Shown: piece by piece, positions 298-48,515 of the stretch
How the letters are laid out: each line of letters begins with the position of its first letter
How positions within the stretch are numbered: position 1 is the stretch's first letter
DNA from: Saccharothrix syringae
Lineage (GTDB): Bacteria > Actinomycetota > Actinomycetes > Mycobacteriales > Pseudonocardiaceae
Length of the DNA stretch: 64,000 nucleotides
Direction: 5' to 3'
Assembly: GCF_009498035.1 (NCBI RefSeq)
Contig: NZ_CP034550.1
Coordinates: 4,278,001-4,342,000 of the forward strand
The notes under the pieces: generated by a model
Databases searched by the model: none
Seen by the model: only the letters and a program-made list of their open reading frames with translations
Told to the model about the DNA's origin: nothing
Made by a program: the position numbers and the translations under genes

Positions 298-525
298 TCA
301 CGCCCCCACGGCCAGGGCGTAGATGCGCTCCAGGCTGGTCGCCTCCAGCACGTCCGCGAATGGCACCCGCCGCCCCGTCTCCCGCTCCAGCGCGGTCAGC
401 AGGCCCAGCAGCAGCACCGAGTCCCAGCCCGCCACCTCGTCGAGGTGGCGGCCCACGTCCTCGCGGTCGATCACCAAGCCCAGTTCGTCGCCGACCAGGG
501 CCACGAAGTCGTCGATGGTCTTCAC
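298..525 (-). CDS. abyA3: Discrete acyl carrier protein for glyceryl-S-ACP
   Basis: A 75-residue free-standing carrier protein. The phosphopantetheine site is Ser36 in GWDSVLLLGLL, followed by a typical helix-rich end (PFADVLEATSLERIYAL). The GTG start at 525 overlaps the stop of the upstream FkbH-like gene by 4 nt (GTGA), so the two are translationally coupled. In tetronate pathways this ACP receives a glyceryl unit from the FkbH-like enzyme and presents it to the KAS III enzyme for condensation with the finished polyketide. The symbol is assigned by pathway analogy with abyssomicin AbyA3. A methoxymalonyl-ACP role is less likely because no O-methyltransferase or dehydrogenase genes accompany it here. 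Confidence 0.88.
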   Translation of the reverse strand: MKTIDDFVALVGDELGLVIDREDVGRHLDEVAGWDSVLLLGLLTALERETGRRVPFADVLEATSLERIYALAVGA

Positions 526-2378
526 CTGCGGTTCCAATCCACGGTCAGGCCCACGTGCGCGGGTGGCGGGGCGATGTCGGTCAGGTCGTGCCGGAAGGTC
601 ACCACGTCGCCGTCGTCGGCCACGGTGGCGAAGCCGACGCCCGGCAGGAAGTCGCGGACCTTGCCGTTCTTCGCGGTCGGCCGGTACTCGCCGAGCACGG
701 CGGTGGCGCCGGTGTCGCGGGCGTGCGCCAGCAGCGCCGACAGCGCGGCCTGCTCCACGCCCCGGGCGAACACCCGGCAGCTCAGCAGCACGTTGTCCAG
801 CCGCAGCACGTCGGCCTCGCGGCGGCCCAGCAGCACGCCCACCAGCCCGTTGTCGCCGAACCGGTCCGCGGTGTGCACCGCGACCACGTAGCCGTCGGGG
901 TCCTCGGCCAGCGCCCGCACGTCGGCCGGCTGGAGCCGCCGCGTGGTCAGGTTGAACTGGTTGGTGCGCAACGTGACCTGCGAGACCCGCGCCAGCTCCT
1001 CGGGCCGGGCCCGGGCGACGCGCACCCGCACGCCCAGCTCGTCCAGGTAGTCCTGGACGGAGTCGAACGAGCGCAGGAAGTCCTGGCGCCCCAGCTCCTC
1101 CTGGTAGCGCGCGGGCCGGGCCACGTCCTCCGCGGTCAGGTCCGGCACGTCGAACCAGCCCTGCGCCAGCAGGCGGTCCACGTGCAGCGCGGGTTCCTCG
1201 TCGACGGCCACCACCGCCACCCCGGGCAGCTCCCGGCGCACCAGGCCCCGCTCGTAGGGGCTGTCGTCGACGAACACGAAGCTGTCCACGCCCAGGTTGA
1301 GCACGTCGGCCAGCTCGCGGAGGTTGTCGTGCTTGGGCCGCCAGTTCGCGACCACCCGGACGAAGTCCTCCTCGCGCACGGCCAGCCGCGGGTGGCCGCC
1401 CAGCGCCTCGCGCACCGGCCCCGGGTCGTTCTTGCTCAGCGCGGCCAGCAGCACGCCCTGGGAGGCGAGCTGGCGCAGGGTGGCCTGGAAGGCGCGGAAC
1501 GCCTCGCCCCGGTAGGTGTCGGCGACCTCGATGCCCTCCACGCCGTCGTCGCCGAGGATGCCGCCCCACGTGGTGCCGTCCAGGTCGACCGCGAGGACCT
1601 TCTTGGCCCGCCCGGTCGAGGCCCGCGCCAGGTGCGCGACCTCGCGCGCGTAGGCGTGCAGCAGCTCGGGGGACAGGTGGGCCTTGGTGTAGGCGGCGAG
1701 CCGGGGCTCCAGCACGGCGATCCCGTCGGAGAGCAGGGCGTCGCTGTCGAGCACCACGAGTGCCGGGTGGTCCTCGGTCAGCCGCAGCAGCCGCGCGTTC
1801 GCCTCGCGCCACACCGCGCCCAGCCGCGCCCGCGACCGGTGGTCGACCAGCTGCGCCGGGTACCGCCGGGGCAGCGGGACGGTGTTGAGCACCAGCGTGC
1901 CGCGGCCGGCCGAGGTGAACCGGATGACCAGCTTCTCCAGCAGCGCCACCCGCTCCGCCAGCACGGCGGCCACGTCGTCGGCCCGCCACGGCGACGGCGC
2001 CTCGGCGAACACCGACGCCGCGTCCAGCAGGACGAGCGTGAGGTCCGCGGGCGGGCCGGCCGGGTCGGACAGCTCGGTGACGTAGCCGCCGAAGTCGCCG
2101 ACCCGCACCCGGGCCAGCAGCCCGTGCCGGGCCAGCTCGCCGGTCAGCGGCGCGACGATCCCGTCCAGCGTGCCGGTCCCGGTCACCGCCACGCGGAAGC
2201 CGGGTGTGCCGGGGTGGGCGCGCAGCACCTCGTCGGGGTCCAGGCGCGACAGCAGTTGCCCGGCGCGGCGCAGCACGTCGGGGTCGGCGTCGGCCAGCAG
2301 GTCGCGCACCCGCGGGTAGCGCTCGACCAGGGAGCCCGACCGGGCCAGGGCGCGCAGTTCGTCCGCTGCGGTGTCCAT
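522..2378 (-). CDS. abyA2: FkbH-like glyceryl-S-ACP synthase
   Basis: A 618-residue FkbH-family protein of the HAD superfamily. The HAD motif I is seen near residue 262 (VLAVDLDGTTWGGILGDDG), with SKND and VFVDDSPYER further on and a C-terminal GNAT-like part. Family members dephosphorylate 1,3-bisphosphoglycerate and load the glyceryl group on an ACP. This makes either the C3 unit of tetronates or methoxymalonyl-ACP. The ACP gene overlaps its stop, and KAS III, acyltransferase and hydrolase genes occur elsewhere in the cluster, which favours tetronate assembly. No Shine-Dalgarno sequence is visible before the ATG at 2378. Together with SARP-like repeats only ~22 nt upstream, this suggests a leaderless or very short leader transcript. 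Confidence 0.92.
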   Translation of the reverse strand: MDTAADELRALARSGSLVERYPRVRDLLADADPDVLRRAGQLLSRLDPDEVLRAHPGTPGFRVAVTGTGTLDGIVAPLTGELARHGLLARVRVGDFGGYVTELSDPAGPPADLTLVLLDAASVFAEAPSPWRADDVAAVLAERVALLEKLVIRFTSAGRGTLVLNTVPLPRRYPAQLVDHRSRARLGAVWREANARLLRLTEDHPALVVLDSDALLSDGIAVLEPRLAAYTKAHLSPELLHAYAREVAHLARASTGRAKKVLAVDLDGTTWGGILGDDGVEGIEVADTYRGEAFRAFQATLRQLASQGVLLAALSKNDPGPVREALGGHPRLAVREEDFVRVVANWRPKHDNLRELADVLNLGVDSFVFVDDSPYERGLVRRELPGVAVVAVDEEPALHVDRLLAQGWFDVPDLTAEDVARPARYQEELGRQDFLRSFDSVQDYLDELGVRVRVARARPEELARVSQVTLRTNQFNLTTRRLQPADVRALAEDPDGYVVAVHTADRFGDNGLVGVLLGRREADVLRLDNVLLSCRVFARGVEQAALSALLAHARDTGATAVLGEYRPTAKNGKVRDFLPGVGFATVADDGDVVTFRHDLTDIAPPPAHVGLTVDWNRR

Positions 2379-2400
2379 GGGGCGATGGTGTCCGGTTCCG

Positions 2401-2555: not shown

Positions 2556-3317
2556 TTGCCGTTCCAGATCCTGGGCACGCTCCGCGTAGTGGGCGACGAC
2601 GTCGCCGACGCGCCGAGCGCCCACAAGGTCAAGACACTGCTGGCCACCCTGCTCATCCGGGCGAACCAGGTCGTCTCGGCGGACCAGTTGCTGGCGGAGC
2701 TCTGGGGCGACGACCCGCCGCGCCGCGCGCTGGCCGGCCTGCACGTCTACGTCTCGCAGCTGCGCAAGTTCCTGGCGGGCGTGCTGCCCGGCCCCGACCG
2801 CGTGGTGACCCGCGCGCCGGGCTACCTGATCAGGGTCGACGCCGACGAGGTCGACCTGCTGGTCTTCCGCAGGCTGGTGCACCAGGGCCGCAACTACGTG
2901 CGGGCGGGGCGGCACGAGGAGGCGGCGGGCGCCTTCGCCGAGGCGCTGGAGCTGTCCCGCGAGTCGGTGCTCGACGACCTGCGCGAGGGTGCCATCGTCA
3001 CCCGCTTCGCCACGTGGGTGGAGGAGCTGCGCCTGGAGTGCACCGAGATGTTCGTGGAGTGCAACTTCACCCTCGGCAGGCACCGGGAGCTGGTCGGGTT
3101 CCTGCACGAGCTGGTGGCCGAGCACCCGCTCCACGAGGCGTTCCACCGGCAGCTGATGCTGGCGCTGTACCGGTCCGACCGCCGGGCCGACGCCCTGGGC
3201 GTCTACCAGGCGGCCCGCGACACCATCACCAGCGAGCTGGGCCTGGAGCCCTGCCGGGCCATGCGCGAGCTGCACCACGCCATCCTGCTCGGCGAGGACG
3301 AGCGGCTGGCGGTCTAG
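2556..3317 (+). CDS. SARP-family pathway regulator
   Basis: A 253-residue Streptomyces antibiotic regulatory protein. The N-terminal winged helix (FQILGTLRVVGDD, then LLATLLIRANQVVSADQLL and LHVYVSQLRKFL, ending APGYLI near residue 95) is followed by a bacterial transcriptional activator domain ending in ELGLEPCRAMRELHHAIL. It is the single-domain size class of ActII-ORF4 and DnrI. I place the start at TTG 2556 because a GGGGG tract lies 7 nt upstream and the protein then begins at the usual family position. In-frame upstream starts would run into the divergent fkbH promoter. It is divergent from the glyceryl-ACP genes and convergent with the LAL regulator. The likely targets are the 11-bp-spaced repeats listed elsewhere. 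Confidence 0.9.
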   Translation: MPFQILGTLRVVGDDVADAPSAHKVKTLLATLLIRANQVVSADQLLAELWGDDPPRRALAGLHVYVSQLRKFLAGVLPGPDRVVTRAPGYLIRVDADEVDLLVFRRLVHQGRNYVRAGRHEEAAGAFAEALELSRESVLDDLREGAIVTRFATWVEELRLECTEMFVECNFTLGRHRELVGFLHELVAEHPLHEAFHRQLMLALYRSDRRADALGVYQAARDTITSELGLEPCRAMRELHHAILLGEDERLAV

Positions 3318-3504: not shown

Positions 3505-6246
3505 TCACCCCAGCGAGGCCAGCAGCCGGACCAGCTCCGCCCGGGAGCTGACCCCCAGCTTGCGGTACACCCGGGTCAGGTGCAGGTCCACCGTCCGCGG
3601 GCTCATCACCAGCTCCTCGGCGATGTCCCGGCTCCGCTTCCCGGTCGCCGCGATCCGCGCGATCTGCGCCTCCCGCCTGGTCAGCACCGACAGGTCCACC
3701 GCGTCCGCCCGCCGCGGCGTGAGCCGGTGGCGCTGCTGGTCGGCGCTCTCGTAGACCACCGTCGCACCCACCTGGCGCGCCAGCTCCCGCGCCAGCAGCA
3801 GGTCGGCGCCCGCCTGCTCGGCCCGCCCGGCCGCCTGGGAGCTGCCCGCCGCGTGGTTGAGGGCCCGGATGCGCGACCCGGTCATCCCCAGCGTCGCGAA
3901 CGACTCCGCCGCCTCCCGGTACAGCTCCGCGGCCTGGCAGTGCTCACCGCCCGCGCGCAGCGCGTGCGCCCGCGCCAGCAGCGCGAACCCCACGTGGTTG
4001 GGCTGCCCGACGAACTCGGCGGCCTCCGCCGCGCGCCGCGCCCACTCCTCCGCGCCCCCGGTGTCGCCGTTGTCCGCCGCGATCGACGACAGCGTCTCGT
4101 AGCACCAGGGCCTGGTCATCGGCGAGACGAACGCCAGGTCCGGCCCGCCGCCCGCGCCGAGGATCACCGCGGTGGCGCGGTCGGTGTCGCCGTCCATGTG
4201 CAGCGCCGAGGCGAGCAGCAGCAGGCCGTTGGTGCCGAACCACCAGTTGCGCGGCAGCTTGGCCCGCGCGGCGCGCTCGGCCCGGTCGACCGCGAGCCTG
4301 CTGCCGCCGCGCCCGTTGGTCCACGCCAGGTAGGCCGCCTCCAGCATCTCCGCCAGGTTGGCCACGTGCGGCGAGCCCAGGCGCTGCGCGACCCGCTTGG
4401 CCTCGGCCGCGCTCTCCCGCGTCTCCTCCAGCCTGGCCACGCAGTGGTGGACCCAGCTCAACCCCATCAGCACGATCGGCAGCAGGCACGAGGTCGGCTG
4501 CCTGCGCAGCAGCGCCAACTGGCGGCCCAGGTGGCGCAGGGCGTCGTCGAACCGGGCCACGATGGTCTCGGCCCAGCCGAGCACGGTCAGGTGGTCGGGG
4601 TGGTCGGCCAGCTCCGCGTCGGGCAGCGCGTCGGCCAGCGCGGCGCACCCGGTGATCAGCTCGTGCGCGGCGTTGACGTCGCCGGTGTGCGCGGCGCGCA
4701 GGGCCTGCACGGCCAGGGCGCCCATCGCCGCCACCCGCTGCCCCGCCCCGCCGGTGTCCACCCCGGCCACGCGCTCGATCTCGGCGTCGTCGGGCAGGTC
4801 GCCGTCGAACAGGCCGACCATCACCCGCCGCGCCACCAGCCGGACCAGGGCGTCCGGGTCGGTGGTGCCCGCCAGCTCCGCGGACAGCAGGTTGCCCGCG
4901 CCCGGGTAGTCGCCCAGGAAGCACTCCAGGAGCGCCTGCTCGGCCACCAGCGCGGCCCGGTCGCCGTTCCCGTCGGCGATCGCGGCGGCCAGCACGTCCC
5001 GTGCCTCGGTGAGCCCGCCGTCGGCGACCAGCGCCCTGGCCAGCAGGTCGGCCGCGGGCGGTAAGCGGTCCGGGGAGACCTCGCCGGCCAGGCGCAGCCA
5101 GCGCACCGCGTCGCCGGGCGCGTCCACGGCGGCCTCGCGGGCGGCGGCCACCAGCAGCGGCACGTCGTCGGGGCGGGGCGCGGACTCGACGTGCGGCACG
5201 CGCTCCCGCGCGGGTCGGTCGGCCAGCACCTCCAGCGCGCGGCGGTGCGCCGCCTCCCGGACGCACCAGTCGATCCGCCGGTACACCACGTCGCGCAGCA
5301 CCTCGTGCCGGAACCGCAGCACACCGGGCTGGGGCACCTCGCGCAGCAGGTCGCGGCGCAGCAGGCCGGCCACGGCCGCGCAGGTCGCGTCGGGTGCCAG
5401 GTCGGCGACGCGCGCGGCGGCGACCGCGACGAAGCTCGTGCCCAGCACCGCGCCCGCGTGCAGCACGGCCGCCTCGTCCGGGGCGAGGCCGGCCAGCTCG
5501 CCGGCGAGCAGCACGCCGAGCCGGTCGCCGACCTCGGCGCGGGACAGGGCCAGCAGGTACAGCGGGTTGCCCTCGGCGCGCCGGTGCAGGTCGAGCAGCG
5601 CCTCGTCGGCCGGGTCGGCGCCGACGAGCAGCGCCGCCTGCGCCGCGGTCAGCGGTGCCAGGGTGAGCCGGTCGCCGGTGCCCGCGTCGACGGCCTGGGT
5701 GATCGCGTTGCGCAGCGCCCGGCACGCCTCGCGGGGCCGCTGGGCGACCACCACGAGCACCGGCGCGGACACCGGGTAGCGGGTCAGGTACTCGACGAAG
5801 CGCGCCGACGCACCGTCGGCCAGGTGGAAGTCGTCCAGCAGGAGCAGCACCGGTTCGGTGGCCAGGGCGGTCAGCGCCGACCGCAGGGCCGGGTGGACCT
5901 GCTCGGGGTCGGCGGCCGGGTCGAGCCCGGCGACCGCACCGGGTCCCAGCGGCTCGGTGACGGCGTGGAACGGGACCTCGCGGTCGGCGCGCCCGCTGCG
6001 ACCGCGCAGCACGCGGATGCCGAGCGCGTGGGCCCGGGCCGCTACGTGGCCCAGCAGCCGGGTCTTGCCGGTGCCCGGGTCGCCTTCGAGCTCGACCACG
6101 CCTCCCCAGCCGCCGGCCAGCGCCTCCAGCGCGGAGTCCAGCCACCGCGCCTCCGCGACGCGTACGACGGGTTCCCGGGGTTCCCGGGGTTCCCGGCCAC
6201 CGGGGTTCGGTCCGCTACGCACGGGAGCCGACGGTACCGTGAACAT
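3505..6246 (-). CDS. LAL-type LuxR-family ATP-binding regulator
   Basis: A 913-residue large ATP-binding LuxR regulator. Walker A is near residue 57 (LEGDPGTGKTRLLGH) and Walker B near 135 (VLLLLDDFHLADG). A long TPR-like middle follows, then a LuxR helix-turn-helix at about 850-912 (LTRREAQIARIAATGKRSRD, then MSPRTVDLHL and RKLGVSSRAEL). Start ATG 6246 is chosen over the longer open frame because GGAAGG lies ~4-5 nt upstream. LAL regulators commonly activate macrolide and spirotetronate clusters, and abyssomicin loci are reported to carry one beside a SARP. The N-terminus carries an Arg-Glu-Pro triple repeat from a 9-bp tandem repeat. It is divergent from the carboxylase gene. Confidence 0.9.
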   Translation of the reverse strand: MFTVPSAPVRSGPNPGGREPREPREPVVRVAEARWLDSALEALAGGWGGVVELEGDPGTGKTRLLGHVAARAHALGIRVLRGRSGRADREVPFHAVTEPLGPGAVAGLDPAADPEQVHPALRSALTALATEPVLLLLDDFHLADGASARFVEYLTRYPVSAPVLVVVAQRPREACRALRNAITQAVDAGTGDRLTLAPLTAAQAALLVGADPADEALLDLHRRAEGNPLYLLALSRAEVGDRLGVLLAGELAGLAPDEAAVLHAGAVLGTSFVAVAAARVADLAPDATCAAVAGLLRRDLLREVPQPGVLRFRHEVLRDVVYRRIDWCVREAAHRRALEVLADRPARERVPHVESAPRPDDVPLLVAAAREAAVDAPGDAVRWLRLAGEVSPDRLPPAADLLARALVADGGLTEARDVLAAAIADGNGDRAALVAEQALLECFLGDYPGAGNLLSAELAGTTDPDALVRLVARRVMVGLFDGDLPDDAEIERVAGVDTGGAGQRVAAMGALAVQALRAAHTGDVNAAHELITGCAALADALPDAELADHPDHLTVLGWAETIVARFDDALRHLGRQLALLRRQPTSCLLPIVLMGLSWVHHCVARLEETRESAAEAKRVAQRLGSPHVANLAEMLEAAYLAWTNGRGGSRLAVDRAERAARAKLPRNWWFGTNGLLLLASALHMDGDTDRATAVILGAGGGPDLAFVSPMTRPWCYETLSSIAADNGDTGGAEEWARRAAEAAEFVGQPNHVGFALLARAHALRAGGEHCQAAELYREAAESFATLGMTGSRIRALNHAAGSSQAAGRAEQAGADLLLARELARQVGATVVYESADQQRHRLTPRRADAVDLSVLTRREAQIARIAATGKRSRDIAEELVMSPRTVDLHLTRVYRKLGVSSRAELVRLLASLG
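6170..6196. repeat. Three 9-bp tandem repeats in the LAL gene 5' end
   Basis: Three perfect head-to-tail copies of GGTTCCCGG. On the coding (minus) strand they encode REPREPREP in the disordered N-terminus of the LAL regulator, ahead of the ATPase core. Confidence 0.85.
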
Positions 6247-6383
6247 TTGCCTTCCCGAGCCCCCTGACCAGTGGGTGGACACCCGCGTCCACGCGCTTGA
6301 CGCGGCACCCGACGGGTTAAGCCGCGCTTTGGCGCCGCCGCGCACGATCGACCGCGTCGCAGCCGCTTCGCAGGGGAGTGCCC

Positions 6384-7760
6384 GTGGACCCGATCTCGCG
6401 CCTGACCCGCTTCGTCGACCACGACTCGCTGACCCCGCTGCACGACCGCGACGGCGTGGCCGCGGTGGTCGCGCGGGCCCGGGTGGACGGTGGCAAGGTC
6501 GTCGTGTTCTGCACCGACGCCACCGTCAAGGGCGGTGCGTTCGGCCGCGCCGAGTGCGAGCGCATCGCCGACGCCATCGACCTCGCGCACGCCGAGGGCA
6601 TCCCGGTCATCGGCCTGTGGCACTCCGGCGGCGCCAAGCTGGGCGACGGCGTGGAGTCGATGGACGGCATCGGCCGCGTCTTCGCCGCCTCGGTCCGCGC
6701 GTCGGGCCGGGTGCCGCAGCTGTCGGTGATCCTGGGCCCGGCGGCGGGTGGCGCGGCCTACGGGCCCGCGCTGACCGACGTCGTGGTGACCGCGCCCGAG
6801 GCCCGGGTGTTCGTCACCGGTCCCGAGGTGGTGCGCAGCGTCACCGGCGAGCGGATCGACATGGCGGGCCTGGGCGGGCCCGAGGCGCACAGCCGCAAGT
6901 CCGGCGTGGTGCACGTGGCGGCCGACTCGGAGGCCGACGCCTTCGCCCGCACCCGCAACCTGGTGCGGCTGCTGGTGTCGCCGGGCGAGTTCGCCGCCGA
7001 CCTGCCCGCCGCCGACCTCGACGACGTGCTGCCCGCCTCGCCGCGGCGCGCCTACGACGTCAAGCCGCTGCTGCACCGGGTGCTCGACCCGGGCTCGTTC
7101 GAGGAGCTGCAGGCCAAGTGGGCGCCCAACGTGGTGGTGGGCCTGGGCCGGCTCGGCGGCGGCGCGGTCGGGGTGGTGGCGAACAACCCGCTGCGCAAGG
7201 GCGGCTGCCTGGACTCGCTGAGCGCGGAGAAGGCTTCGCGGTTCGTGCGGATGTGCGACGCGTTCGGCGTGCCGCTGCTGGTGGTCGTGGACGTGCCCGG
7301 CTACCTGCCCGGGGTCGGCCAGGAGTGGGGCGGTGTGGTGCGGCGCGGCGCGAAGCTGCTGCACGCCTTCGCGGAGGCCGTGGTGCCGCGGGTGACGCTG
7401 GTGACCCGCAAGTCCTACGGTGGCGCGTACATCGCGATGAACTCGCGGTCCCTGGGCGCGACGGCGGTGTTCGCCTGGCCCGGCGCGGAGGTCGCGGTGA
7501 TGGGCGCGGAGGCGGCGGTCGGCGTGCTGCACCGCAAGAAGCTGGCCGCGGTGGAGGACGAGGCGGAGCGCGAGAAGCTGCGCGCGCGGCTGGTGGTGGA
7601 GCAGCAGGCGACGGCGGGCGGGGTGGACCGGGCGCTGGCGCTGGGCGTGGTGGACGAGGTGGTCGAGCGGGCCGACACGCGGGCCCGGCTGGTGCGGGCG
7701 TTCCGGGATGCGGTCTCCGAGCCGCGGCGGCGGGGCGCGCACGGCAACATCCCGCTGTGA
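6384..7760 (+). CDS. Acyl-CoA carboxylase carboxyltransferase (beta) subunit
   Basis: A 458-residue biotin-dependent carboxyltransferase of the propionyl/acetyl-CoA carboxylase beta family. It transfers CO2 from carboxybiotin to acyl-CoA, making malonyl- or methylmalonyl-CoA. Both crotonase-like halves are present: LWHSGGAKLGDGVESM with [15 protein letters not shown] in the N half, and DVPGYLPGVGQEWGGVVRRG with RKSYGGAYIAMNSRSLGA in the C half. It is slightly shorter than the usual ~520 residues. I choose GTG 6384 because AGGGGAG ends 5 nt upstream; GTG 6378 sits inside that tract. No alpha (biotin) subunit is nearby, so it must pair with a housekeeping one. In this cluster it probably raises the supply of methylmalonyl-CoA for modules 4 and 5, or malonyl-CoA. 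Confidence 0.9.
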   Translation: MDPISRLTRFVDHDSLTPLHDRDGVAAVVARARVDGGKVVVFCTDATVKGGAFGRAECERIADAIDLAHAEGIPVIGLWHSGGAKLGDGVESMDGIGRVFAASVRASGRVPQLSVILGPAAGGAAYGPALTDVVVTAPEARVFVTGPEVVRSVTGERIDMAGLGGPEAHSRKSGVVHVAADSEADAFARTRNLVRLLVSPGEFAADLPAADLDDVLPASPRRAYDVKPLLHRVLDPGSFEELQAKWAPNVVVGLGRLGGGAVGVVANNPLRKGGCLDSLSAEKASRFVRMCDAFGVPLLVVVDVPGYLPGVGQEWGGVVRRGAKLLHAFAEAVVPRVTLVTRKSYGGAYIAMNSRSLGATAVFAWPGAEVAVMGAEAAVGVLHRKKLAAVEDEAEREKLRARLVVEQQATAGGVDRALALGVVDEVVERADTRARLVRAFRDAVSEPRRRGAHGNIPL

Positions 7761-7781
7761 GGCGGGGACCTCGCACAGCAG

Positions 7782-7832: not shown

Positions 7833-8825
7833 TCAGCGGTCGACGAACTGGAGGCTGAAGTCGGTCAGCTTCCTGCCGCGCACCTCACCCGCGGGCAACG
7901 CCTCCTCGATGCGCCGGAGGTCCCCTTCGGACAGTTCGACCCCCGCCGCGCCCAGGTTCTCCTCCAGGTGCTCCACCCGCCGGGTGCCCGGGATCGGCAC
8001 CACGTCCGGCCCCTGGTGCAGCAGCCACGCCAGGGCGAGCTGACCGGCGGTCACGCCGAACTCGGCGGCCACCGCCTCGAAGCGGGTCACCAGCGCCAGG
8101 TTGTGGTCGAAGTTCTCCTCGCTCAACCTCGGCTGGGCCACGAACCGGAAGTCCGTCGGGTCGAACACGTCGCGGGAGCGGTACCTGCCGGTCAGGAAAC
8201 CCCGGCCCAGCGGCGCGTTCGGCACCAGCGCGATGCCCAGCTCCCGCGCGGTCGGCGCGATCTCCGGCTCGATCTCGCGCGACCACACCGACCACTCCGT
8301 CTGCAACGCGGTGATCGGGTGCACGGCGTGGGCGCGCCGGATCGTGGCGGCGGACGCCTCGGACAGGCCGAGGTGGCGGACCTTGCCCTCGGCCACCAGC
8401 TCGGCCAGCGCGCCGACGGTCTCCTCGATCGGCACCGAGGTGTCCACCCTGGCCTGGTAGTACAGGTCGACGTGGTCGACGCCGAGCCTGCGCAGCGACG
8501 CCTCCAGCGCCTCCCGCACGTACGCCCGGTCGCCGCGGACCTCCTGGCCGATGCCGTTGTCGGCCCGGCGGACGCCGAACTTGGTGGCGATCAGCACCTC
8601 GTCGCGCCGGTCGGCCAGGGCCTTGCCCAGCAGCTCCTCGCCGGTGCCGTGGCCGTAGACGTCGGCGGTGTCGAACAACGTCACGCCCAGGTCGACGGCA
8701 CGCCTGATGGTGGCGGTGGACTGCGCGTCGTCGGTGGGGCCGTAGAACTCGGCGACGCCGAGCCCGCCCAGGCCCAGCGCGCCGACCTCCGCTCCACCGA
8801 GCGTGCGGGTGGGCAGCTTGCTCAT
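7833..8825 (-). CDS. Aldo/keto reductase lacking the catalytic His
   Basis: A 330-residue NADPH-type aldo/keto reductase closest to the AKR13-like group. Catalytic Asp and Tyr are in [17 protein letters not shown] and Lys in IATKFGVRR. The motif that normally reads LYYQHRVD reads LYYQARVD, so the His of the Asp-Tyr-Lys-His tetrad is Ala. The Ala codon (GCC) is clear in the DNA. The NADP end is normal ([18 protein letters not shown]). The start is ATG 8825, preceded by GGAG at 5 nt; the longer open frame would run into the cyclase promoter. It is divergent from the AbyU-like gene. A role in reducing a ketone or enone of the spirotetronate is possible but is inference from position only. Confidence 0.85.
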
Positions 8826-9541: not shown

Positions 9542-13513
<3,972 letters not shown>

Positions 13514-41496: not shown

Positions 41497-41525
41497 CTAA
41501 CCACGGACTTGCCGCGCGCTAAAGC
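41497..41525 (-). promoter_or_regulatory. SARP operator before the PKS operon
   Basis: On the minus strand GCTTTAG (41525-41519), CGGCAAG (41514-41508) and TGGTTAG (41503-41497) are spaced exactly 11 bp and each end in AG. The first overlaps the stop codon (TAG) of the upstream hydrolase gene. The site lies 77 nt before the synthase ATG in the 98-bp gap. It would allow the PKS genes to be driven separately from the upstream tetronate genes. Confidence 0.55.
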
Positions 41526-42538
41526 GGAACCTCCACAGAGGACCGGACGGCGTCGATCAGCCACTCGCGCGTCCGCGCCGCGTGCCGGGGCGCGCCGTGC
41601 ACGTCGTCGTGCGCCAGCACGTCCAGGTCGCGCACGTGCTCGCGCAGCAGCGCCAGGTCGCCCGGGGCGATGATCTCGTCCCGCAGGCTCGCCACGTACC
41701 GCACCGGGATGTCCAGCGCCCGCAGGTGGTCCGCGGACAGCGCCCACGTCGGCAGCACCGACGGCAGGGCGCCCGGCGGCACGCCGACCAAGTGCGCCAG
41801 CGTGTCCGCGGTGACCTTGGGCAGCCCGGACACCCAGTCGGCGTCGGCGAAGGTGTGCCGGATCGGCGCGCCCGCCGTGGCCACGGTCCGGATGCGCCGG
41901 TCCTCGACGGCGGCGCGCAGCGCGGCGTGCCCGCTGAAGCTCAGCGCCAGCGCCGCGGTCCGGGTCACGTCCGCCCGGTCGGCCAGCGCGTCCAGGATCG
42001 CGGGGATGAGCCGCCAGCTCTCCGCGTTGTAGCGCAACGTGTTCTCGCCGACGCCGGGCAGCTCGGTGACCACGGCCGCGAACCCCAGCCGCGCACCCGC
42101 GAGCAGCACCGGTGCCCACTGCTCCTTGGTGCTGACGATGCCGCCGCTGATCAGCAGCAGCGGCTTGGGGTCCGAAGTGGACAGGCCGTGGGTCCAGAAG
42201 CCGACCTCGCCGCCGAGCAGCGGCAGGTCCAGCCGCTCGATGCCCGGCACGGTGACCCGCCACTCGTCGGTGACGCGCACCGAGTTCTCCAGGGCGTCCA
42301 GCCGGGCGTTGCCGTCCACGAACGGGAAGCGCGCGAAGTTGTAGCGCTGGGCGGCGGCGAGCAGCTCGCCCTCGGCCTCCAGCTCCTCCGCGCGCCGCGA
42401 CCACTCGTAGACCCACGAACCCGGCCCGACGCCGTCGTGGGTGACGCGGTCGAGCACCGCCCGGTAGTCCTCGGGCGGTATCGCCAGCGACTCCGCGTGC
42501 GCGGCGACGTACCGCTTCAGCTCCTCGACGTCGTTCAC
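41519..42538 (-). CDS. abyA5: Alpha/beta-hydrolase for tetronate methylene formation
   Basis: A 339-residue alpha/beta-hydrolase of the FrsA-like type, with an N-terminal helical cap segment (~1-100). The nucleophile elbow reads ALSFSGHAAL, so GxSxG is altered at both glycines while the central Ser stays. A candidate acid is in LRDEIIAP and the His is in VHGAPRH. In agglomerin and abyssomicin pathways the equivalent enzyme (Agg5, AbyA5) eliminates acetate from the acetylated tetronate, giving the exocyclic double bond. The GTG start at 42538 overlaps the acyltransferase stop (GTGA). It is the last gene of the chain of overlapping genes that begins at 46911. The role is inferred from the neighbouring acyltransferase and KAS III. 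Confidence 0.85.
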   Translation of the reverse strand: MNDVEELKRYVAAHAESLAIPPEDYRAVLDRVTHDGVGPGSWVYEWSRRAEELEAEGELLAAAQRYNFARFPFVDGNARLDALENSVRVTDEWRVTVPGIERLDLPLLGGEVGFWTHGLSTSDPKPLLLISGGIVSTKEQWAPVLLAGARLGFAAVVTELPGVGENTLRYNAESWRLIPAILDALADRADVTRTAALALSFSGHAALRAAVEDRRIRTVATAGAPIRHTFADADWVSGLPKVTADTLAHLVGVPPGALPSVLPTWALSADHLRALDIPVRYVASLRDEIIAPGDLALLREHVRDLDVLAHDDVHGAPRHAARTREWLIDAVRSSVEVPL

Positions 42539-43305
42539 GGCTCCTCCTCGACGGTTTCCAGCGCTTCCTTGACCTCGGTCAGCACGTCGGCCGCCTCGGC
42601 GCCGTCGATCACGCGGTGGTCGAAGGCGAGGCTGAGCCGCATCACCGGCGCGACCACGACCCGGCCGGCGCGCACCACGGGCCGGTCCACGACCCGGCCC
42701 AGGCCGAGGGTGATCGTGGTGCCGCCGACGGAGTGGAACGAGTCGACCGCCCGGTGGCCCAGCGAGGTGACCGCGAACGTGCCCCACACCGCCGAGCGGG
42801 TCGCCAGCGGCTTGACCACGTCCCGGAACGCGCGGGCGGCGACCCGCCACGACGGCTCGGCGTGCAGCCTGCGCACGCCCTCGAACTCGGGCGCGGTGGC
42901 CGGGTCGGCGTCCCGCAGGTGCTCGACGCGGTCCTGCACCTCGTGCAGGCTCGCCCGGTCCAGGTCGCGCAGCACGCCCGCGAGCACCACCCGGTGCCCG
43001 TCGACCACCTTGTCCAGGGTGACCTTGCCGTGCACGCCCGCGTGCCGGGCGACGCGGGGCACGATGCCGTCCAGGATCGCGGAGTTGGCCTCGGGGTGCT
43101 CGGCCAGCACGCGCGCGGCGGCGTGCAGGACGTGCGTGACGGGGGACACGCGCCTGCCCCGGAACGCCCGGACGGCGGTCATGTCGACCTCGGTGTCCAG
43201 GAAGACCGGGGCGAAGTCGCGGGTGGCGCGCAGGAAGAACAGCGTGTGCCTGCGCTGCCGGGGGATGTCGACGACCTCCGGCTCGTGGCCGGCGGTGCCG
43301 CTCAC
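42535..43305 (-). CDS. abyA4: E2-type acyltransferase (tetronate O-acetyltransferase)
   Basis: A 256-residue protein that is only the catalytic domain of a 2-oxoacid dehydrogenase E2 acyltransferase, with no lipoyl or peripheral-subunit-binding domain. The catalytic HxxxDG is in SLAFDHRVIDGAEAADV near residue 229. In spirotetronate and agglomerin pathways such stand-alone domains acetylate the primary alcohol of the glycerol-derived tetronate, preparing it for elimination. The GTG start overlaps the KAS III stop by 4 nt and its own stop overlaps the hydrolase start. This gives the acetylate-then-eliminate gene pair found in known clusters. Confidence 0.9.
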   Translation of the reverse strand: MSGTAGHEPEVVDIPRQRRHTLFFLRATRDFAPVFLDTEVDMTAVRAFRGRRVSPVTHVLHAAARVLAEHPEANSAILDGIVPRVARHAGVHGKVTLDKVVDGHRVVLAGVLRDLDRASLHEVQDRVEHLRDADPATAPEFEGVRRLHAEPSWRVAARAFRDVVKPLATRSAVWGTFAVTSLGHRAVDSFHSVGGTTITLGLGRVVDRPVVRAGRVVVAPVMRLSLAFDHRVIDGAEAADVLTEVKEALETVEEEP

Positions 43306-44339
43306 ACCCGCTCCAGCGCGAACCCGGCCTTGATCCACTTGCTGGACTCGACCGCGATGCCCAGCACCCGGTCGCCGTCCTCCAGCAGCGGCAGCACCCG
43401 TTCCAACTGCTGGAACGGCAGCGCGTTGGCGTTGTTGCCGGTCTCGGTGACGCAGGTGACCTCGCGCATGGTCGGCACGTCCAGCTCGCGCATGATCCGC
43501 GCGGTCATCCGCTGCGACAGCTGCGGCGGCAGGATGTAGTCGACCTCGGTGTCGGTCCAGTTGAGCCCGTCCAGCAGCTCCTTGAGGATCTCCACCGACA
43601 TGGCCGGCACGGACTCCTCGATGGCCTTGTAGTCCTCGCGCGAGCCGGTGCGCCCCGGCACGTGGTCGACCGGGCCGAACCACTCCAGGACCTGACCGGG
43701 CTCGCGGCCCAGGCCGGTCAGCCGGGTGAGCACCTTGCGCAGCACCGGGCCCTCCCGGTCGGGGTCGGTGGTCAGCACCGCCGCGCCCGCGCCGTCGCCG
43801 AACAGCGCCACGTTGACCATCTCGCCGGGCGGCAGCGACCGCAGGTCCAGGCCCAGGTCGTAGTGCTTGGCGATGACGTCGCCGCCGACCACCAGGGCGT
43901 GCCGGTAGCGGCCGGTCAGCAGCATCTGCTGGGCGACGTCGAGCGCCTGGAACGCCCCGGCGCAGCCGGACTGGAGCTGGTAGGTGGGCACGTTGTCGAT
44001 GCCGAGCCGGTCGGCGACGACGTTGACGGTGGCGGGCATCAGCCGGTCCGGCGTGGCGGTGCCCATGACCAGCAGGTCGACCTCGTCGGCCCGCACGCCG
44101 GCGGCGTCGAGCGCCCTGCGGCCGGCGGCCTCGCCCAGGTCGGCCAGGGAGTACCGGACCTCGCCGGAGTCGAGGTCGACGGCGAGGTGGCGGGTGCGGG
44201 TGCCGATGAACGCGTCGACCCACTGCACCCACAGCTCGTCCATGCCGAACCGGCGGGCCAGGTCGGCGTTGCTGACCGGCGGGCCGGGCAGGGCCGTGCC
44301 GACCGACAGCAGGCGGATCTCAGGCGGGGGCGTGCTCAT
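43302..44339 (-). CDS. abyA1: KAS III-like enzyme joining glyceryl-ACP and polyketide
   Basis: A 345-residue FabH-like ketosynthase III. The nucleophile Cys is near residue 126 (LQSGCAGAFQAL), the C-terminal Asn is in ETGNNANALP near 303, and LFGDGAGAAVL is conserved. Where FabH has the catalytic His (VPHQAN), this protein has LPPQLSQ near 273, so the His is replaced by Pro. In tetronate pathways this class forms the C-C and C-O bonds between glyceryl-ACP and the beta-ketoacyl chain, releasing it from the PKS and replacing a thioesterase. The start ATG overlaps the stop of the FAD monooxygenase (ATGA). Confidence 0.92.
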   Translation of the reverse strand: MSTPPPEIRLLSVGTALPGPPVSNADLARRFGMDELWVQWVDAFIGTRTRHLAVDLDSGEVRYSLADLGEAAGRRALDAAGVRADEVDLLVMGTATPDRLMPATVNVVADRLGIDNVPTYQLQSGCAGAFQALDVAQQMLLTGRYRHALVVGGDVIAKHYDLGLDLRSLPPGEMVNVALFGDGAGAAVLTTDPDREGPVLRKVLTRLTGLGREPGQVLEWFGPVDHVPGRTGSREDYKAIEESVPAMSVEILKELLDGLNWTDTEVDYILPPQLSQRMTARIMRELDVPTMREVTCVTETGNNANALPFQQLERVLPLLEDGDRVLGIAVESSKWIKAGFALERV

Positions 44340-45853
44340 CGGGCTCCTTCGGTGGCGACCGCCCGGGACGGGGCGGTGCGGTCGGTCAGCGGCGGTCCGG
44401 TCAGCGGCTCGCCGAACCAGCGCCGCAGCGCCCGCTCGGGGCTGCCCGCGCCGGCCCAGGCGACGTGCCCGTCCGGGCGCAGCAGCAACGCCGGCGCGCC
44501 CTCGACGGCGCCCCGGGCGGCAACGGTGTCCACGCGGTCGCGCCACGGCGCCGCGGCGTCGGCGTGCCGCCCGTCGAGGTCGACCAGCACGCCGCGGCCG
44601 CGGCGCAGCAGCGCGGAGGTGGTGGTCGGCGTCCCGTCGGGCGCGGTCAGCTCGCGGTGCGGGACCAGCCGGCCCGGCAGCGGGCCGTCCTCGCCGACGT
44701 CGTGGCGCAGGGTCAGGCCGGTCACCTCGGCGGCCAGCCGCCGGTTCGCCTCGGGCAGCGCGGCCAGGTCGGCGACGAAGTCCCGCAGGCTGGCCACGCC
44801 CGCGCCGCCCTGCATCAGCGCGTCCTGGGCCCGGGTCAGCGCCAGCACCCGGGCCGCGGCGGGCCCGCGCTCGGCGTCGTAGCTGTTCAGCAGGTCCGGC
44901 GGCGCCCAGCCGCGCACCCGCGCGGCCAGCTTCCAGCCGAGGTTCACCGCGTCGGCGATGCCCAGCCCGATGCCCTGCCCGCCGAACGGCGGGTGCACGT
45001 GCGCCGCGTCGCCCGCGAGCAGCACGCGGCCCCGCCGCAGGGCGTCGACCTGGCGGGTGGTGTTGCCGAACCGGCTCACCCACAGCGGCGTGCCGGCCGA
45101 GATGTCCACCCCGGACAGGTCGCGCACGGCGGCGGCGACCTCGGCGAAGCTCGGCGGGCCGGCGCCGCGCACCGGCGGCCGGGCGAAGTCGCAGGCGAAC
45201 AGCCGCACGCTGCCCGGCGCCACCACCGACAGGCCCACCCAGCCGCGCTCGGTGCGCAGGAACGGGAACGGGTCGCGCGGCAGCGGCACGTCCTCCGGGG
45301 CCAGGCCGGCCACGTCGGCCAGCAGCACGTCCACCGTGGCGGGCGTGCCGGGGAAGGCGAACCCGGCCAGGTCGCGGACCGCGCTGCGCCCGCCGTCGCA
45401 CCCGACCACGTGGGAGGCGCGCAGGGCGTACGGGCCGTCCGGGCCGGACACGGCCAGCTCCACGCCGTCCGGGCCGGCGTCGAGGCCGGTGACCTCGTGG
45501 CCGCGCCGCACCACCGCGCCCAGGTCGCGCGCCCACCGCAGCAGCACCTCCTCCACGGTGGCCTGCGGCACCAGCGCCGCCGCCCGGGGCGTGTCGAGCA
45601 CGCCCAGGTCCAGGCCGCCGGGCAGCAGGGCGAAGTGGCCGTGGGCGCCGACCCGCAGGCGGTCGCCGAAGCGGCGCAGCAGGTCGCGCTGGTCCCAGTA
45701 GCGCAGGGTGCCCGCGTACACGCCGGGTGCGCGGGACTGCCCGGTGGGCTCGGGCAGCCGCTCCAGCACGGTCACCCCGACCCCGGCCAGCGCCAGCTCA
45801 CCGGCGAGCATCAGGCCGGTCGGGCCGGCCCCGACCACGACGACCGGGGTCAC
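44336..45853 (-). CDS. FAD-dependent aromatic/polyketide hydroxylase-type monooxygenase
   Basis: A 505-residue class A flavin monooxygenase. The N-terminal dinucleotide motif is VVVVGAGPTGLMLAGELALAG. A DG motif occurs in HVVGCDGGRSAVRDLAG and the GD motif in VLLAGDAAHVHPPFGGQGIG, followed by LGWKLAA and a thioredoxin-like C-terminal third. This is the PgaE/RdmE/MhpA size and layout. It uses NAD(P)H itself and needs no separate reductase. GTG 45853 overlaps the stop of the luciferase-like gene (GTGA), and its stop overlaps KAS III. I do not recall such a gene in the reference abyssomicin set, so it may add an extra oxidation. The substrate cannot be told from sequence. Confidence 0.9.
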   Translation of the reverse strand: MTPVVVVGAGPTGLMLAGELALAGVGVTVLERLPEPTGQSRAPGVYAGTLRYWDQRDLLRRFGDRLRVGAHGHFALLPGGLDLGVLDTPRAAALVPQATVEEVLLRWARDLGAVVRRGHEVTGLDAGPDGVELAVSGPDGPYALRASHVVGCDGGRSAVRDLAGFAFPGTPATVDVLLADVAGLAPEDVPLPRDPFPFLRTERGWVGLSVVAPGSVRLFACDFARPPVRGAGPPSFAEVAAAVRDLSGVDISAGTPLWVSRFGNTTRQVDALRRGRVLLAGDAAHVHPPFGGQGIGLGIADAVNLGWKLAARVRGWAPPDLLNSYDAERGPAAARVLALTRAQDALMQGGAGVASLRDFVADLAALPEANRRLAAEVTGLTLRHDVGEDGPLPGRLVPHRELTAPDGTPTTTSALLRRGRGVLVDLDGRHADAAAPWRDRVDTVAARGAVEGAPALLLRPDGHVAWAGAGSPERALRRWFGEPLTGPPLTDRTAPSRAVATEGAR

Positions 45854-46911
45854 GGTGCCGCGACGGTGGCGACCCGGCCGCCCAGCTCCGCGACGGCGGG
45901 CAGCACGTGGTCGGCGAACAGCCGCGCAGACGCGTTCGCCACGTCGTCGGGCAGCGCGCCGTACTGGAACCCGGCGTTGACGTGGGTGACGCCCGCGTCG
46001 GCGATCTCGTGCAGCTGCTCGACGATCTCGTCCGGCGTGCCGGCCAGCAGCCGCTGGTAGGCCAGCTCCTCGTCGGCGGGGTCGATCGCGGCCGGGTGGG
46101 GCGCGATGCCCAGCACCGGCTCGGTGCCCTGCGCCAGGGTGCGGGAGAGCTGGATCTGGCGGGCCACCTCGCGCGCGGCCGCGCGCCGCCCCTCCGGGTC
46201 GGTGGAGCAGTAGACGAACCGGTTGGCGCCGAACTCGACGCCCTCGGTGGAGCGGCCGACCTCCGCGCCCAGCTCCCCGATGCGCCGCCACTGGGCGGCC
46301 AGCTCGGCGGGCGTGGACAGGGCCAGGCCGAGGTGGTGGAACCCGCGCTCGACCGCGAACCTGGTGGACTCCTCGCTGACCGCGGCCAGCCAGATCGGCG
46401 GGTGCGGGGTCTGCACGGGCCGCGGCAGCACGGTCACCGGCGCGTCCACCGAGTAGAACTCGCCCCGGAAGGTGGTGTCGGTCTCGGTGAACAGCCTGGT
46501 GATCAGGTCCACGTGCTCGGTGAACGCGGCCCGGCTGTCGGCCAGCTCCCGGCCGAAGCCCAGGAACTCGTGCGGCTGGTAGCCGCGGCCGATGCCGAGG
46601 TCGAAGCGGCCTTCCGAGAGCACGTCGAGCGTGCTCACGTCGGCCACGAGCCGGCGCGGGTCCCACAGCGGCAGGACCAGGATGCCGGTGCCGATGCGCA
46701 GGTCCGGCGCGATGGCGGCGGCCTTGGCCAGCAGCACCAGCGGCGACGCGCTCAGGCTGTAGGTGGAGAAGTGGTGCTCGGTGATCCAGATGCCGGAGAA
46801 GCCGCGGCCGTTGGCCCACTCGACCTGGTCGAAGAAGTCGCGGTACTTCGCCGCCGTCGTGGCGCGGTCGACGTCCGAGGACGGGCTGAGGTAGGTGATC
46901 CCGACGCGCAC
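45850..46911 (-). CDS. Luciferase-like (LLM) flavin-dependent monooxygenase
   Basis: A 353-residue bacterial luciferase-like oxidoreductase with a TIM-barrel fold: MRVGITYL start, GIWITEHHF, RIGTGILVLPLWDPRRLVAD, DLGIGRGYQPHEFLGFG and PPIWLAAVSEES. These enzymes use reduced FMN from a partner reductase; the truncated flavin reductase at the left edge is a candidate. An LLM monooxygenase (AbyE) is also part of the abyssomicin set as I recall it. It is the first gene of a run of overlapping genes (LLM, FAD monooxygenase, KAS III, acyltransferase, hydrolase). It diverges from the P450 across a 198-bp region with SARP-like repeats. Confidence 0.9.
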   Translation of the reverse strand: MRVGITYLSPSSDVDRATTAAKYRDFFDQVEWANGRGFSGIWITEHHFSTYSLSASPLVLLAKAAAIAPDLRIGTGILVLPLWDPRRLVADVSTLDVLSEGRFDLGIGRGYQPHEFLGFGRELADSRAAFTEHVDLITRLFTETDTTFRGEFYSVDAPVTVLPRPVQTPHPPIWLAAVSEESTRFAVERGFHHLGLALSTPAELAAQWRRIGELGAEVGRSTEGVEFGANRFVYCSTDPEGRRAAAREVARQIQLSRTLAQGTEPVLGIAPHPAAIDPADEELAYQRLLAGTPDEIVEQLHEIADAGVTHVNAGFQYGALPDDVANASARLFADHVLPAVAELGGRVATVAAP

Positions 46912-46988
46912 TGGTCTGTCCCCTGTTCACTCCGGCGATGCTGGCGTCCCCGGACTCTGACAACGGCGGCTAGCGCGCCGCTTGTCGG

Positions 46989-47038: not shown

Positions 47039-47109
47039 GGCCATTGTCAGGCCGTCGGGCGTGGCTCTACCTTCGGGCTCTCCCAAGGCATTCCCTCCCA
47101 GGAGGTCCC

Positions 47110-48309
47110 GTGTCGCCCGACCTCGCCGAGGCTCCGTCCTTTCCGGAGCGTCGCACCTGCCCGTACCACCCGCCGGAGTCCTACAAGCAGATCGCCGAGC
47201 GCGGACCGCTCAACAAGGTCACGCTGTGGAACGGCCGCCAGGTGTGGCTCGTCACCGGCTACGCCGAGGGCCGCAAGCTGCTCGCCGACCCGCGGCTGTC
47301 CGCCGACCGGCAGCAGGAGCAGTACCCGACGATGGCGCGGCACCTCCAGGCGCAGGCCGCGCGCAAGCTGGTGCTCGTCGGCGAGGACCCGCCGCTGCAC
47401 GACAAGCACCGGCGGCTGCTCAACCCCGAGTTCAGCCTCAAGCGCGCCCGCGCCATGCACGAGGGCATCCAGGCGATCATCGACGAGCTGATCGACAACA
47501 TCCTGGCCATCGGTCCCGGCGCGGACCTGGTCACCGAGTACGCGCTGCCCATCCCGTCCCGGGTGATGTCGCAGCTCGTGGGCGTGCCCTACGAGGACCG
47601 CGAGTTCTTCCAGTCCGCCACCGCGGGCGTGATGCAGGCCCGCGACGAGCACCAGTCGCAGCAGGCGGGCACGGAACTCGCGCAGTACCTCGCCAAGCTC
47701 GTGGACGTCAACCTGGTGCGGCCCGGCGAGGGGGTGATCGGCAGGCTCGCCGAGCACGTCCACTCGGGCGAGCTGACCCGCGACGAGCTGGCGCAGCTGG
47801 CCATGGTGCTCATGATCGCGGGACTGGAGACCACCTCGTCGATGATCCCGCTCGGCGTGATCACGCTGCTGGAGCACCCCGACCAGCTGGAGGCGCTGAC
47901 CTCGGGCGCGGTGCCGGTGCCGACGGCGGTGGAGGAGCTGCTGAGGTTCCTGGCGGTCACCGACTTCGCCGCGGTGCGGTGGGTGACCGACGACATCGAG
48001 ATCGCCGGCCACACGATCCGGGCGAAGGACGGCATCGTGGTGTCGTCCACGATGGTCAACCGCGACCCGGCGGTGCACGACGACCCGCACGCCTTCGACA
48101 TCGCCCGCGGCAACCGCCAGCACCTGACGTTCGGCTACGGCATCCACCAGTGCCTGGGCCAGAACCTGGCGCGCCTCCAGCTGCAACTGGCGTACCAGAC
48201 GCTGTTCCGCCGCATCCCGGGGTTGGGGTTGGGCATCCCCAGCGAGGAGATCCGGATGCGCACCACGGGCACCATGCAGGGCGTCGAGCGACTTCCGGTG
48301 GTGTGGTGA
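47110..48309 (+). CDS. Cytochrome P450
   Basis: A 399-residue class I bacterial P450, soluble, without a membrane anchor. The I-helix motif is MIAGLETTSS, the K-helix ExxR is EELLR, and the heme loop FGYGIHQCLGQNLA carries the axial Cys. The start is GTG 47110, preceded by a near-perfect GGAGGT at 3-4 nt; the longer frame would consume the promoter. It is co-transcribed with a ferredoxin whose start overlaps its stop. In abyssomicin biosynthesis a P450 (AbyV) epoxidises the cyclohexene made by the cycloaddition, which then allows ring closure. That role fits here but cannot be proven from sequence. Confidence 0.93.
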   Translation: MSPDLAEAPSFPERRTCPYHPPESYKQIAERGPLNKVTLWNGRQVWLVTGYAEGRKLLADPRLSADRQQEQYPTMARHLQAQAARKLVLVGEDPPLHDKHRRLLNPEFSLKRARAMHEGIQAIIDELIDNILAIGPGADLVTEYALPIPSRVMSQLVGVPYEDREFFQSATAGVMQARDEHQSQQAGTELAQYLAKLVDVNLVRPGEGVIGRLAEHVHSGELTRDELAQLAMVLMIAGLETTSSMIPLGVITLLEHPDQLEALTSGAVPVPTAVEELLRFLAVTDFAAVRWVTDDIEIAGHTIRAKDGIVVSSTMVNRDPAVHDDPHAFDIARGNRQHLTFGYGIHQCLGQNLARLQLQLAYQTLFRRIPGLGLGIPSEEIRMRTTGTMQGVERLPVVW

Positions 48310-48515
48310 TGGGCCTCCACGTGTCCGCCGAGCGCGGCCGGTGCATCGGTGCGGGGCTGTGCGTGCTGACCGCGCCCGACGTGTTCGAGCACGACGACGA
48401 CGAGGGCCTGGTCAGCGTCCTGGACGCCACCCCGCCCGCCGAGCACCACGAGGACGTGCGGCTGGCGCAGGAGCTGTGCCCGGCCAACGCGATCGCCCTC
48501 GCGGTGCCCCGGTGA
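48309..48515 (+). CDS. [3Fe-4S] ferredoxin, P450 redox partner
   Basis: A 68-residue ferredoxin with three cysteines placed as in 3Fe-4S P450 partners: Cys13 and Cys18 in RCIGAGLCVL, and a third in ELCPANAI. The fourth Cys position is Ala/Gly. The protein is acidic in the middle (EHDDDEG), as expected for P450 docking. The ATG shares one base with the P450 stop (TGATG). It delivers electrons from a ferredoxin reductase, which is not encoded in this window. Confidence 0.92.
   Translation: MGLHVSAERGRCIGAGLCVLTAPDVFEHDDDEGLVSVLDATPPAEHHEDVRLAQELCPANAIALAVPR

Follow-up and report, generated by a model that had tools for sequence, protein, structure and literature searches.

A predicted abyssomicin-type spirotetronate cluster in Saccharothrix syringae with a PgaE-like flavin hydroxylase gene and an altered releasing carrier protein

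The window analysed here comprises 64,000 bases (4278001-4342000) of the single 10,929,570-base contig of Saccharothrix syringae, and carries polyketide synthase (PKS) genes together with genes for tetronate formation. From domain content and gene families, the locus is very probably (roughly 0.88) an abyssomicin-type spirotetronate cluster leading to a C19 congener of abyssomicin C. Gene boundaries were taken from a codon-usage gene call, and PKS domains were assigned by motif and by eye on the translations.

Seven modules were read on three PKS genes, B1 (5905 aa), B2 (3369 aa) and B3 (1323 aa), which follow one another head to tail on the minus strand and are separated by 20 and 59 bases (Table 1). 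The loading module combined a KSQ-type ketosynthase (KS; VDSGQSSA) with an acyltransferase (AT) of code HAFH and an acyl carrier protein (ACP). The AT code was also HAFH in modules 1, 2, 3 and 6, and YASH with GHSQGE in modules 4 and 5. Modules 1 to 3 had a dehydratase (DH) with HxxxGxxxxP and the second Asp motif, and a ketoreductase (KR) whose nucleotide motif, Lys, Ser and Tyr were all present. Module 4 kept the DH His and Asp and had no KR, module 5 had a DH, an enoylreductase (ER) and an intact KR, and in module 6 the KR was a remnant lacking the nucleotide motif, Ser and Tyr; no thioesterase (TE) followed module 6 in the translation of B3. The abyssomicin-type plan was present throughout: KSQ loading, three malonyl DH-KR modules, an unreduced and then a fully reduced methylmalonyl module, and an unreduced malonyl module with no TE. 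An earlier note on this DNA had read the modules in the same way, including the missing KR of module 4 and the dead KR of module 6, and the domain motifs and AT codes bore this out with no AT or KR prediction in disagreement. By standard PKS logic the chain would be a C16 unit with keto groups at C3 and C7, methyl groups at C4 and C6, a methylene at C5 and a C8-C13 triene, to which three glyceryl carbons would be added.

The aby cluster of Micromonospora (Verrucosispora) maris AB-18-032 was compared through its published table and not through its DNA. In the published description, the abyssomicin C PKS begins with KSQ loading and three DH-KR modules that take acetate; two propionate modules follow, the first with DH and KR inactive and the second with ER, and an acetate module comes last (PMC3625739). 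Window and aby had the same number of modules in the same order, with like AT choice and reductions and a last module lacking TE. The succession of modules, their AT codes and the absent reductions supported the order of keto, methyl and alkene groups that the earlier note had equated with abyssomicin C (PMC3625739). Counterparts of aby A1-A5, U, V, C, D, E, F1-F4, H, I and Z occurred at the locus (PMC3625739). Relative to the aby table (PMC3625739), A2/A3 were split from A1/A4/A5 in the window, and the KR of the first methylmalonyl module was absent and not mutated, with the DH His and Asp kept. The window locus added a ferredoxin, an aldo/keto reductase (AKR), a flavin adenine dinucleotide (FAD) hydroxylase, two further luciferase-like monooxygenases (LLM) and a carboxyltransferase, and AbyX, AbyK and AbyT were not found among its genes run through Pfam (PMC3625739).

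A neoabyssomicin/abyssomicin 2-type skeleton would be consistent with the AKR, ferredoxin, LLM and flavin reductase, all of which have counterparts in the abm cluster of Streptomyces koyangensis (PMC5819245, Table 1); the AKR AbmJ, ferredoxin AbmG, P450 AbmV, transporters and regulators were shared by family. The methylmalonyl ATs of neoabyssomicin are in its modules 2 and 5, which are modules 1 and 4 in window numbering (PMC5819245), whereas the window had methylmalonyl codes in modules 4 and 5 and a malonyl code in module 1, and this skeleton was rejected on AT codes as highly improbable. Gene order and methyl positions differed from abm, and Table 1 of PMC5819245 gives neither FAD hydroxylase nor carboxyltransferase. 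The comparison with both reference clusters that the earlier note had proposed, run against published tables, gave the plan of aby and not the methyl pattern of abm.

The tetronate cassette A1-A5 was present with all five genes, split as A1-A4-A5 and A2-A3, and called starts gave 4-bp overlaps throughout LLM3-FAD-A1-A4-A5. Family matches, for which coincidence is of no concern, confirmed the FkbH-like protein, ACP, KAS III, E2-type acyltransferase, alpha/beta hydrolase and AbyU-like protein named in the earlier note, and the raw open reading frame (ORF) 298-2412 resolved into an ACP gene (298-525) and an FkbH gene (522-2378). The hydrolase was FrsA-like by Pfam, with AbyA5 as best solved relative, and A1 was 78% identical to its counterpart in Protofrankia and 79-80% to that in Kutzneria. 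For A4 and A5, roles were assigned from abm deletion mutants (PMC5819245). The AbyU-like protein belonged to the AbyU family (PF18678, 140.5 bits); the best of its 14 solved relatives was 9uuv (E 7.2e-12), and AbmU 6le0 (E 7.6e-11) and 5dyv (E 9.5e-11) were close behind. Its gene would start near 8987 if the 169-aa database protein is correct. The P450 was AbyV/AbmV-like (AbyV 7qan, E 3.5e-89), although P450-SU1 outscored this match; 7QAN is AbyV (PMC10107801). The carboxyltransferase probably serves malonyl/methylmalonyl-CoA supply, and was 59-63% identical to proteins on a Protofrankia contig and 70% to one in a Pseudofrankia tetronate locus (L089).

Table 1. Genes and PKS modules of the predicted cluster (window positions; domain order from motifs)
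Feature	Position	Strand	Evidence
Flavin reductase (AbyZ/AbmZ-like), N-terminal part	3..263	-	Flavin_Reduct PF01613 138.8 bits; whole gene L009:14757-15263
Discrete glyceryl ACP, AbyA3-like	298..525	-	PP-binding PF00550 32.6 bits; 4-bp overlap with next gene
FkbH-like glyceryl-ACP synthase, AbyA2-like	522..2378	-	TIGR01686 FkbH 271.3 bits, above cut-off
SARP activator, AbyI-like	2589..3317	+	BTAD 146.9 bits; Trans_reg_C
LuxR/LAL regulator, AbyH-like	3505..6345	-	GerE, AAA_16; start possibly 6099
Carboxyltransferase	6378..7760	+	PF01039 419.8 bits
Aldo/keto reductase, AbmJ family	7833..8825	-	PF00248 255.7 bits
AbyU-family [4+2] cyclase candidate	8987..9496	+	AOC_like PF18678 140.5 bits
PKS B3, releasing module 6: KS-AT(HAFH)-dead KR remnant-ACP	9542..13513	-	Pfam and motif reading
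Releasing ACP of B3	9590..9790	-	PP-binding at residues 1242-1308; motif
PKS B2 module 5: KS-AT(YASH)-DH-ER-KR-ACP	13573..19755 (approximate border)	-	Motif reading
PKS B2 module 4: KS-AT(YASH)-DH-ACP, no KR	19753..23682 (approximate border)	-	Motif reading
PKS B1 modules 3, 2, 1: each KS-AT(HAFH)-DH-KR-ACP	23703..38393 (approximate border)	-	Motif reading
PKS B1 loading module: KSQ-AT(HAFH)-ACP	38391..41420 (approximate border)	-	Motif reading
Alpha/beta hydrolase, AbyA5-like	41519..42538	-	AbyA5 structure 5no5, E 1.5e-104
E2-type acyltransferase, AbyA4-like	42535..43305	-	PF00198 (2-oxoacid_dh) 76.2 bits
KAS III-like tetronate former, AbyA1-like	43302..44339	-	PF08545, PF08541
FAD monooxygenase, start uncertain	44336..45853	-	4x4j 428.7 bits, PgaE 399.9; tree; GxGxxG, DG, GD motifs
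Luciferase-like monooxygenase LLM3	45850..46911	-	PF00296 206.2 bits
Cytochrome P450, AbyV/AbmV-type candidate epoxidase	47044..48309	+	P450-SU1 390.7 bits; 7qan 302.8 bits, E 3.5e-89
Ferredoxin	48303..48515	+	Fer4_13 48.2 bits; 7-bp overlap with P450 gene

The earlier note had placed a complete cluster at 298-48515; the gene content stood, but the interval was too short and genes continued left of base 1. The 11 kb to the left (L009) held a TetR gene, a major facilitator superfamily (MFS) pump, luciferase-like oxygenases of NtaA type and MsnO8 type, a four-gene oligopeptide-type ABC system and the flavin reductase overhanging the window start, so that both the F1-F4 ABC quartet and the MFS/TetR pair were found. 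Between them, window and L009 had genes corresponding by family to aby C, D, E, F1-F4, H, I, U, V, Z, A1-A5 and B1-B3. Drawn by homology, the left edge would be at about genome position 4266761 (L009:3761-13504 and 14757-15263). To the right of the cluster, window positions 50413-63999 encoded a two-component pair, a member of the beta-lactamase family, an enzyme of the enolase superfamily, a protease resembling PrsW, an HSP20, SpoIIE phosphatases and a B12-binding protein, and nothing clearly biosynthetic. PabB is the target of abyssomicin C (PMC3625739). Self-resistance by a duplicate of this target was rejected, as the nearest of seven chorismate-binding matches in the genome was about 0.56 Mb from the cluster and none was within it. 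A second tetronate cluster at G000:C1:3535001-3596000 (L120-L123) was also rejected, only a distant KAS III (30% over 190 residues) being matched for A1-A5 among the genes called there. That large, unrelated PKS cluster had a strong AOC_like gene (C1:3594911-3595285) between P450-like and short-chain dehydrogenase/reductase-like genes.

Related clusters were found in Kutzneria buriramensis DSM 45791 (L149-L155; PMC11812412) and in two other Pseudonocardiaceae, G132 and G192 (L156-L162). Kutzneria shared with the window A1 (79%), A4 (68%), A5 (66%), U (70%) and LLM3 (70%), the order A1-A4-A5-B1, a module 4 without KR motif and a releasing ACP reading GFSSF. It differed in the AT of module 5, and the FAD hydroxylase, AKR and carboxyltransferase were not found on contig C29 (97 kb) or in the first 40 kb of C13. 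As the ER-bearing module on C13 (L154) had the malonyl code HAFH, the abyssomicin predicted for Kutzneria would be one methyl short of the product predicted for the window. The KS-to-KS spacing of the first methylmalonyl module was 1273 aa in the window, 1310 aa in Kutzneria, 1237 aa in G192 and 1258 aa in G132; this spacing and the absence of KR motifs suggest that the KR loss is common to these relatives. In G192 and G132 the methylmalonyl-like GHSQGE marked not only modules 4 and 5 but also module 1, and these clusters perhaps make three-methyl congeners.

Protofrankia coriariae BMG5.1 (L139-L143) had the same order LLM3-FAD-A1-A4-A5-B1 as the window, and the FAD enzyme, LLM3, P450 (73%), ferredoxin, AKR (75%), SARP, carboxyltransferase, A1-A5 and U all on one contig. 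Its PKS was cut by the contig end, so that the comparison concerns genes outside the modules; the transporter genes were only 26-48% alike, and D, E and Z were not among the matches listed. No paper pairing abyssomicin with Protofrankia was found in the open-licence literature. The tetronate cluster of Streptomyces monomycini (L182-L186) had KSQ loading and, 16 kb from A5, a PgaE-like FAD gene 55% identical to that of the window; over the 100 kb read, no match to an AbyU-like gene reached E 1e-10. The nearest named proteins were from Actinosynnema sp. NPDC051121, in which relatives of the AbyU-like protein (91%) and the FAD enzyme (78%) shared one contig of 140,823 bases.

Scanning genome contigs with an AbyA5 alignment yielded 148 relatives, and locus comparisons used the best 80; many Streptomyces loci among these 80 carried U beside A1-A5, Z, D, E and F1-F4. 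Seven cluster types have been reported for 74 cyclase homologues, and the gene order of the window fitted none of types 1-4 as described there (PMC7176366). Loci alike in such numbers and a gene order outside these types suggest that the cluster is a new addition to a well-populated abyssomicin-type group, and the extra oxidising enzymes suggest a new family member.

Among solved relatives, the FAD enzyme scored highest against 4x4j (428.7 bits) and PgaE (399.9), followed by ChlE3 (275) and PyrE3 (247), and all three flavin-hydroxylase motifs (GxGxxG, DG, GD) were present, as in a PgaE-like hydroxylase. The entry 4x4j ('putative oxygenase') we take to be BexE. A tree of 42 rows included 19 tetronate-locus FAD enzymes, the 19th being that of Protofrankia, and no characterised cyclase or PgaE row. 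The window enzyme clustered with those of Actinosynnema sp. NPDC051121 and Protofrankia and a metagenomic protein (100/99), and was split (100/99) from the other 18 tetronate-locus enzymes, presumed cyclases that include that of Actinomadura kijaniata. No FAD gene turned up on the Kutzneria stretches that were examined; genome-wide the best match was 46%, on another contig. Were the enzyme a decalin-forming Diels-Alderase of the PyrE3/ChlE3/KijA kind, as its superfamily and its scores against these two cyclases would allow, the product would be a decalin-bearing spirotetronate; the higher scores of PgaE and 4x4j, the position apart in the tree and a predicted chain with a single triene and no second dienophile make this highly improbable, and it was not supported. 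By score and tree the FAD enzyme resembles PgaE-type hydroxylases more than tetronate decalin cyclases, and our reading is that it takes part in the pathway in this lineage, as a putative oxygenase.

In the pathway proposed, the PKS would assemble acetyl, three malonyl, two methylmalonyl and one malonyl unit, and FkbH would charge the discrete ACP with glyceryl. The KAS III enzyme would accept the chain carried by the final ACP of the PKS and close the tetronate, after which the E2-type and then the hydrolase-type enzyme would acetylate and eliminate, giving the exocyclic methylene. The AbyU-like protein may couple this methylene to the triene by [4+2] addition; the P450/ferredoxin pair would epoxidise the cyclohexene, with a tetronate oxygen opening the epoxide. 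The FAD hydroxylase, LLM3 and AKR would add or adjust oxygen at some point to give a C19 abyssomicin C congener. Predicted [M+H]+ values are 331.154 for the adduct, 347.149 at the level of abyssomicin C and 363.144 with one further O.

The product could instead be exactly abyssomicin C/atrop-abyssomicin C, with the FAD enzyme and LLM3 as passengers or for self-protection. The PKS plan identical to that of aby agrees with this, and the FAD enzyme has a likeness to rifampin monooxygenases (NCBIfam rif_monoox, 399.6 bits, far under its cut-off of 800). The 4-bp overlaps of the FAD gene with LLM3 and A1 (called starts), which join FAD and LLM3 to the core tetronate genes, the same gene order in Protofrankia, and the shared contig of FAD and AbyU relatives in Actinosynnema make passengers unlikely. 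An oxidised congener of abyssomicin C is probably the product, and the earlier note's 'congener rather than exact copy' is supported by the extra FAD hydroxylase, three luciferase-like oxygenases, AKR and ferredoxin, with no match to a second P450, an AbyK-like protein or a PF00975-type TE among the genes run through Pfam.

Several observations weigh against an abyssomicin C congener made in this way. No docking coil was found in the B3 N-terminus, where 29 residues precede the KS, and the B3 counterparts in G132 and G192 start with coil-like stretches; the B2-to-B3 hand-over is therefore assigned by gene order. The AbyU-like protein was only 30-35% identical to those of aby-like Streptomyces and Micromonospora loci. 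The second P450 (AbyX), type II TE (PF00975) and AbyK-like protein were not matched among the cluster genes run through Pfam. On the draft scaffold of Protofrankia, about 40 kb separated A2, A3 and U from A1, and some 27 kb of this was taken up by genes without a match. The start of the FAD gene, and hence its overlap with LLM3, is uncertain, and the 491-aa database copy would cut GxGxxG.

The last ACP of B3 read G-x-S/T-S-F, with S in place of the usual D before the pantetheine Ser and F after it, the usual form being G-x-D-S-L. ORF-terminal PKS ACPs were taken from the window, four relatives (Kutzneria, G132, G192 and S. monomycini), the second PKS cluster of the genome and 77 of the 80 loci, leaving out L040, L041 and L064 (loci of this observation: L042-L119, L154, L182-L186, L188-L215 and L274-L292). 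By pattern, which misses ACPs outside it, 21 were of S or T type and 22 of D type. The protein ended within 33-65 residues in the S/T-type ACPs (21); tails of the D type had at least 95 residues in 18 cases, were acidic and of 58-66 residues in two (upstream subunits of G132 and G192), and had 42 residues in two (L118, L119). A looser pattern, selecting S/T only, gave 24 cases. An internal ACP of the second, unrelated PKS cluster (C1:3535001-3596000) read LGFSSL.

Profile A3, made from 19 of the 24 S/T cases and favouring S/T, had an S-type, protein-terminal best match in 25 of 29 tetronate-bearing genomes and a D-type one in four, and only 11 of the 25 S-type matches lay on a contig equal in length to that of an AbyA5 locus already known for the genome concerned. 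Among 25 genomes of the window's genus, two had an S-type best match and 23 a D- or E-type one; the two were those with a strong AbyA5 match, and as both had contributed rows to A3, the 1-in-300 figure of this test is not independent and only the 0/23 is informative. In a family sample of 120 genomes, nine had an AbyA5 match. The best ACP match was read in 30 family genomes: none of the 23 without AbyA5 had a protein-terminal S/T, and among the seven with AbyA5 three showed terminal S and four were D-type. One family genome without AbyA5 had a T-type ACP with a 116-residue tail, and G132 was D-type by best match though its releasing ACP is T-type. Around AbyA5 in six genomes outside the profile, multi-module PKSs ended in LGFSSF (G486, G510) and IGMTSF (G481), single-KS PKSs of about 1000-1100 aa ended in LGFDSI (G014, G495), like L118 and L119, and G509 was cut short and unreadable.

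Releasing ACPs of D type occurred in L118, L119, G014 and G495. With three multi-module S/T cases against two single-module D cases outside the profile, the S/T signature seems to belong to multi-module tetronate PKSs, mostly with F following, and single-module ones keep D. These ACPs are best read as specialised where they face the KAS III tetronate former; the rival account of the same residues is that selection has relaxed at the assembly line's end. It is tentatively proposed, at slightly less than even confidence, that G-x-[S/T]-S-F replaces G-x-D-S-L so that a multi-module releasing ACP feeds KAS III and not a KS, and that in the window's lineage the PgaE-like FAD hydroxylase beside KAS III makes a new, more oxidised abyssomicin. 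No tetronate releasing-ACP motif showed among the open-licence papers listed, and an earlier report may exist elsewhere.

The locus offers a contiguous cluster of predicted abyssomicin C type in a single-contig genome, from a genus with few such genes (AbyA5 was strongly matched in 2/25 genomes). It carries a P450-ferredoxin gene pair, whereas the study of AbyV relied on spinach partners (PMC10107801), and the FAD hydroxylase beside A1 may be an entry to new abyssomicin chemistry. If true, the releasing-ACP signature would allow multi-module tetronate PKSs to be recognised cheaply in fragmented genomes, and would give a handle on ACP choice in KAS III-type release.

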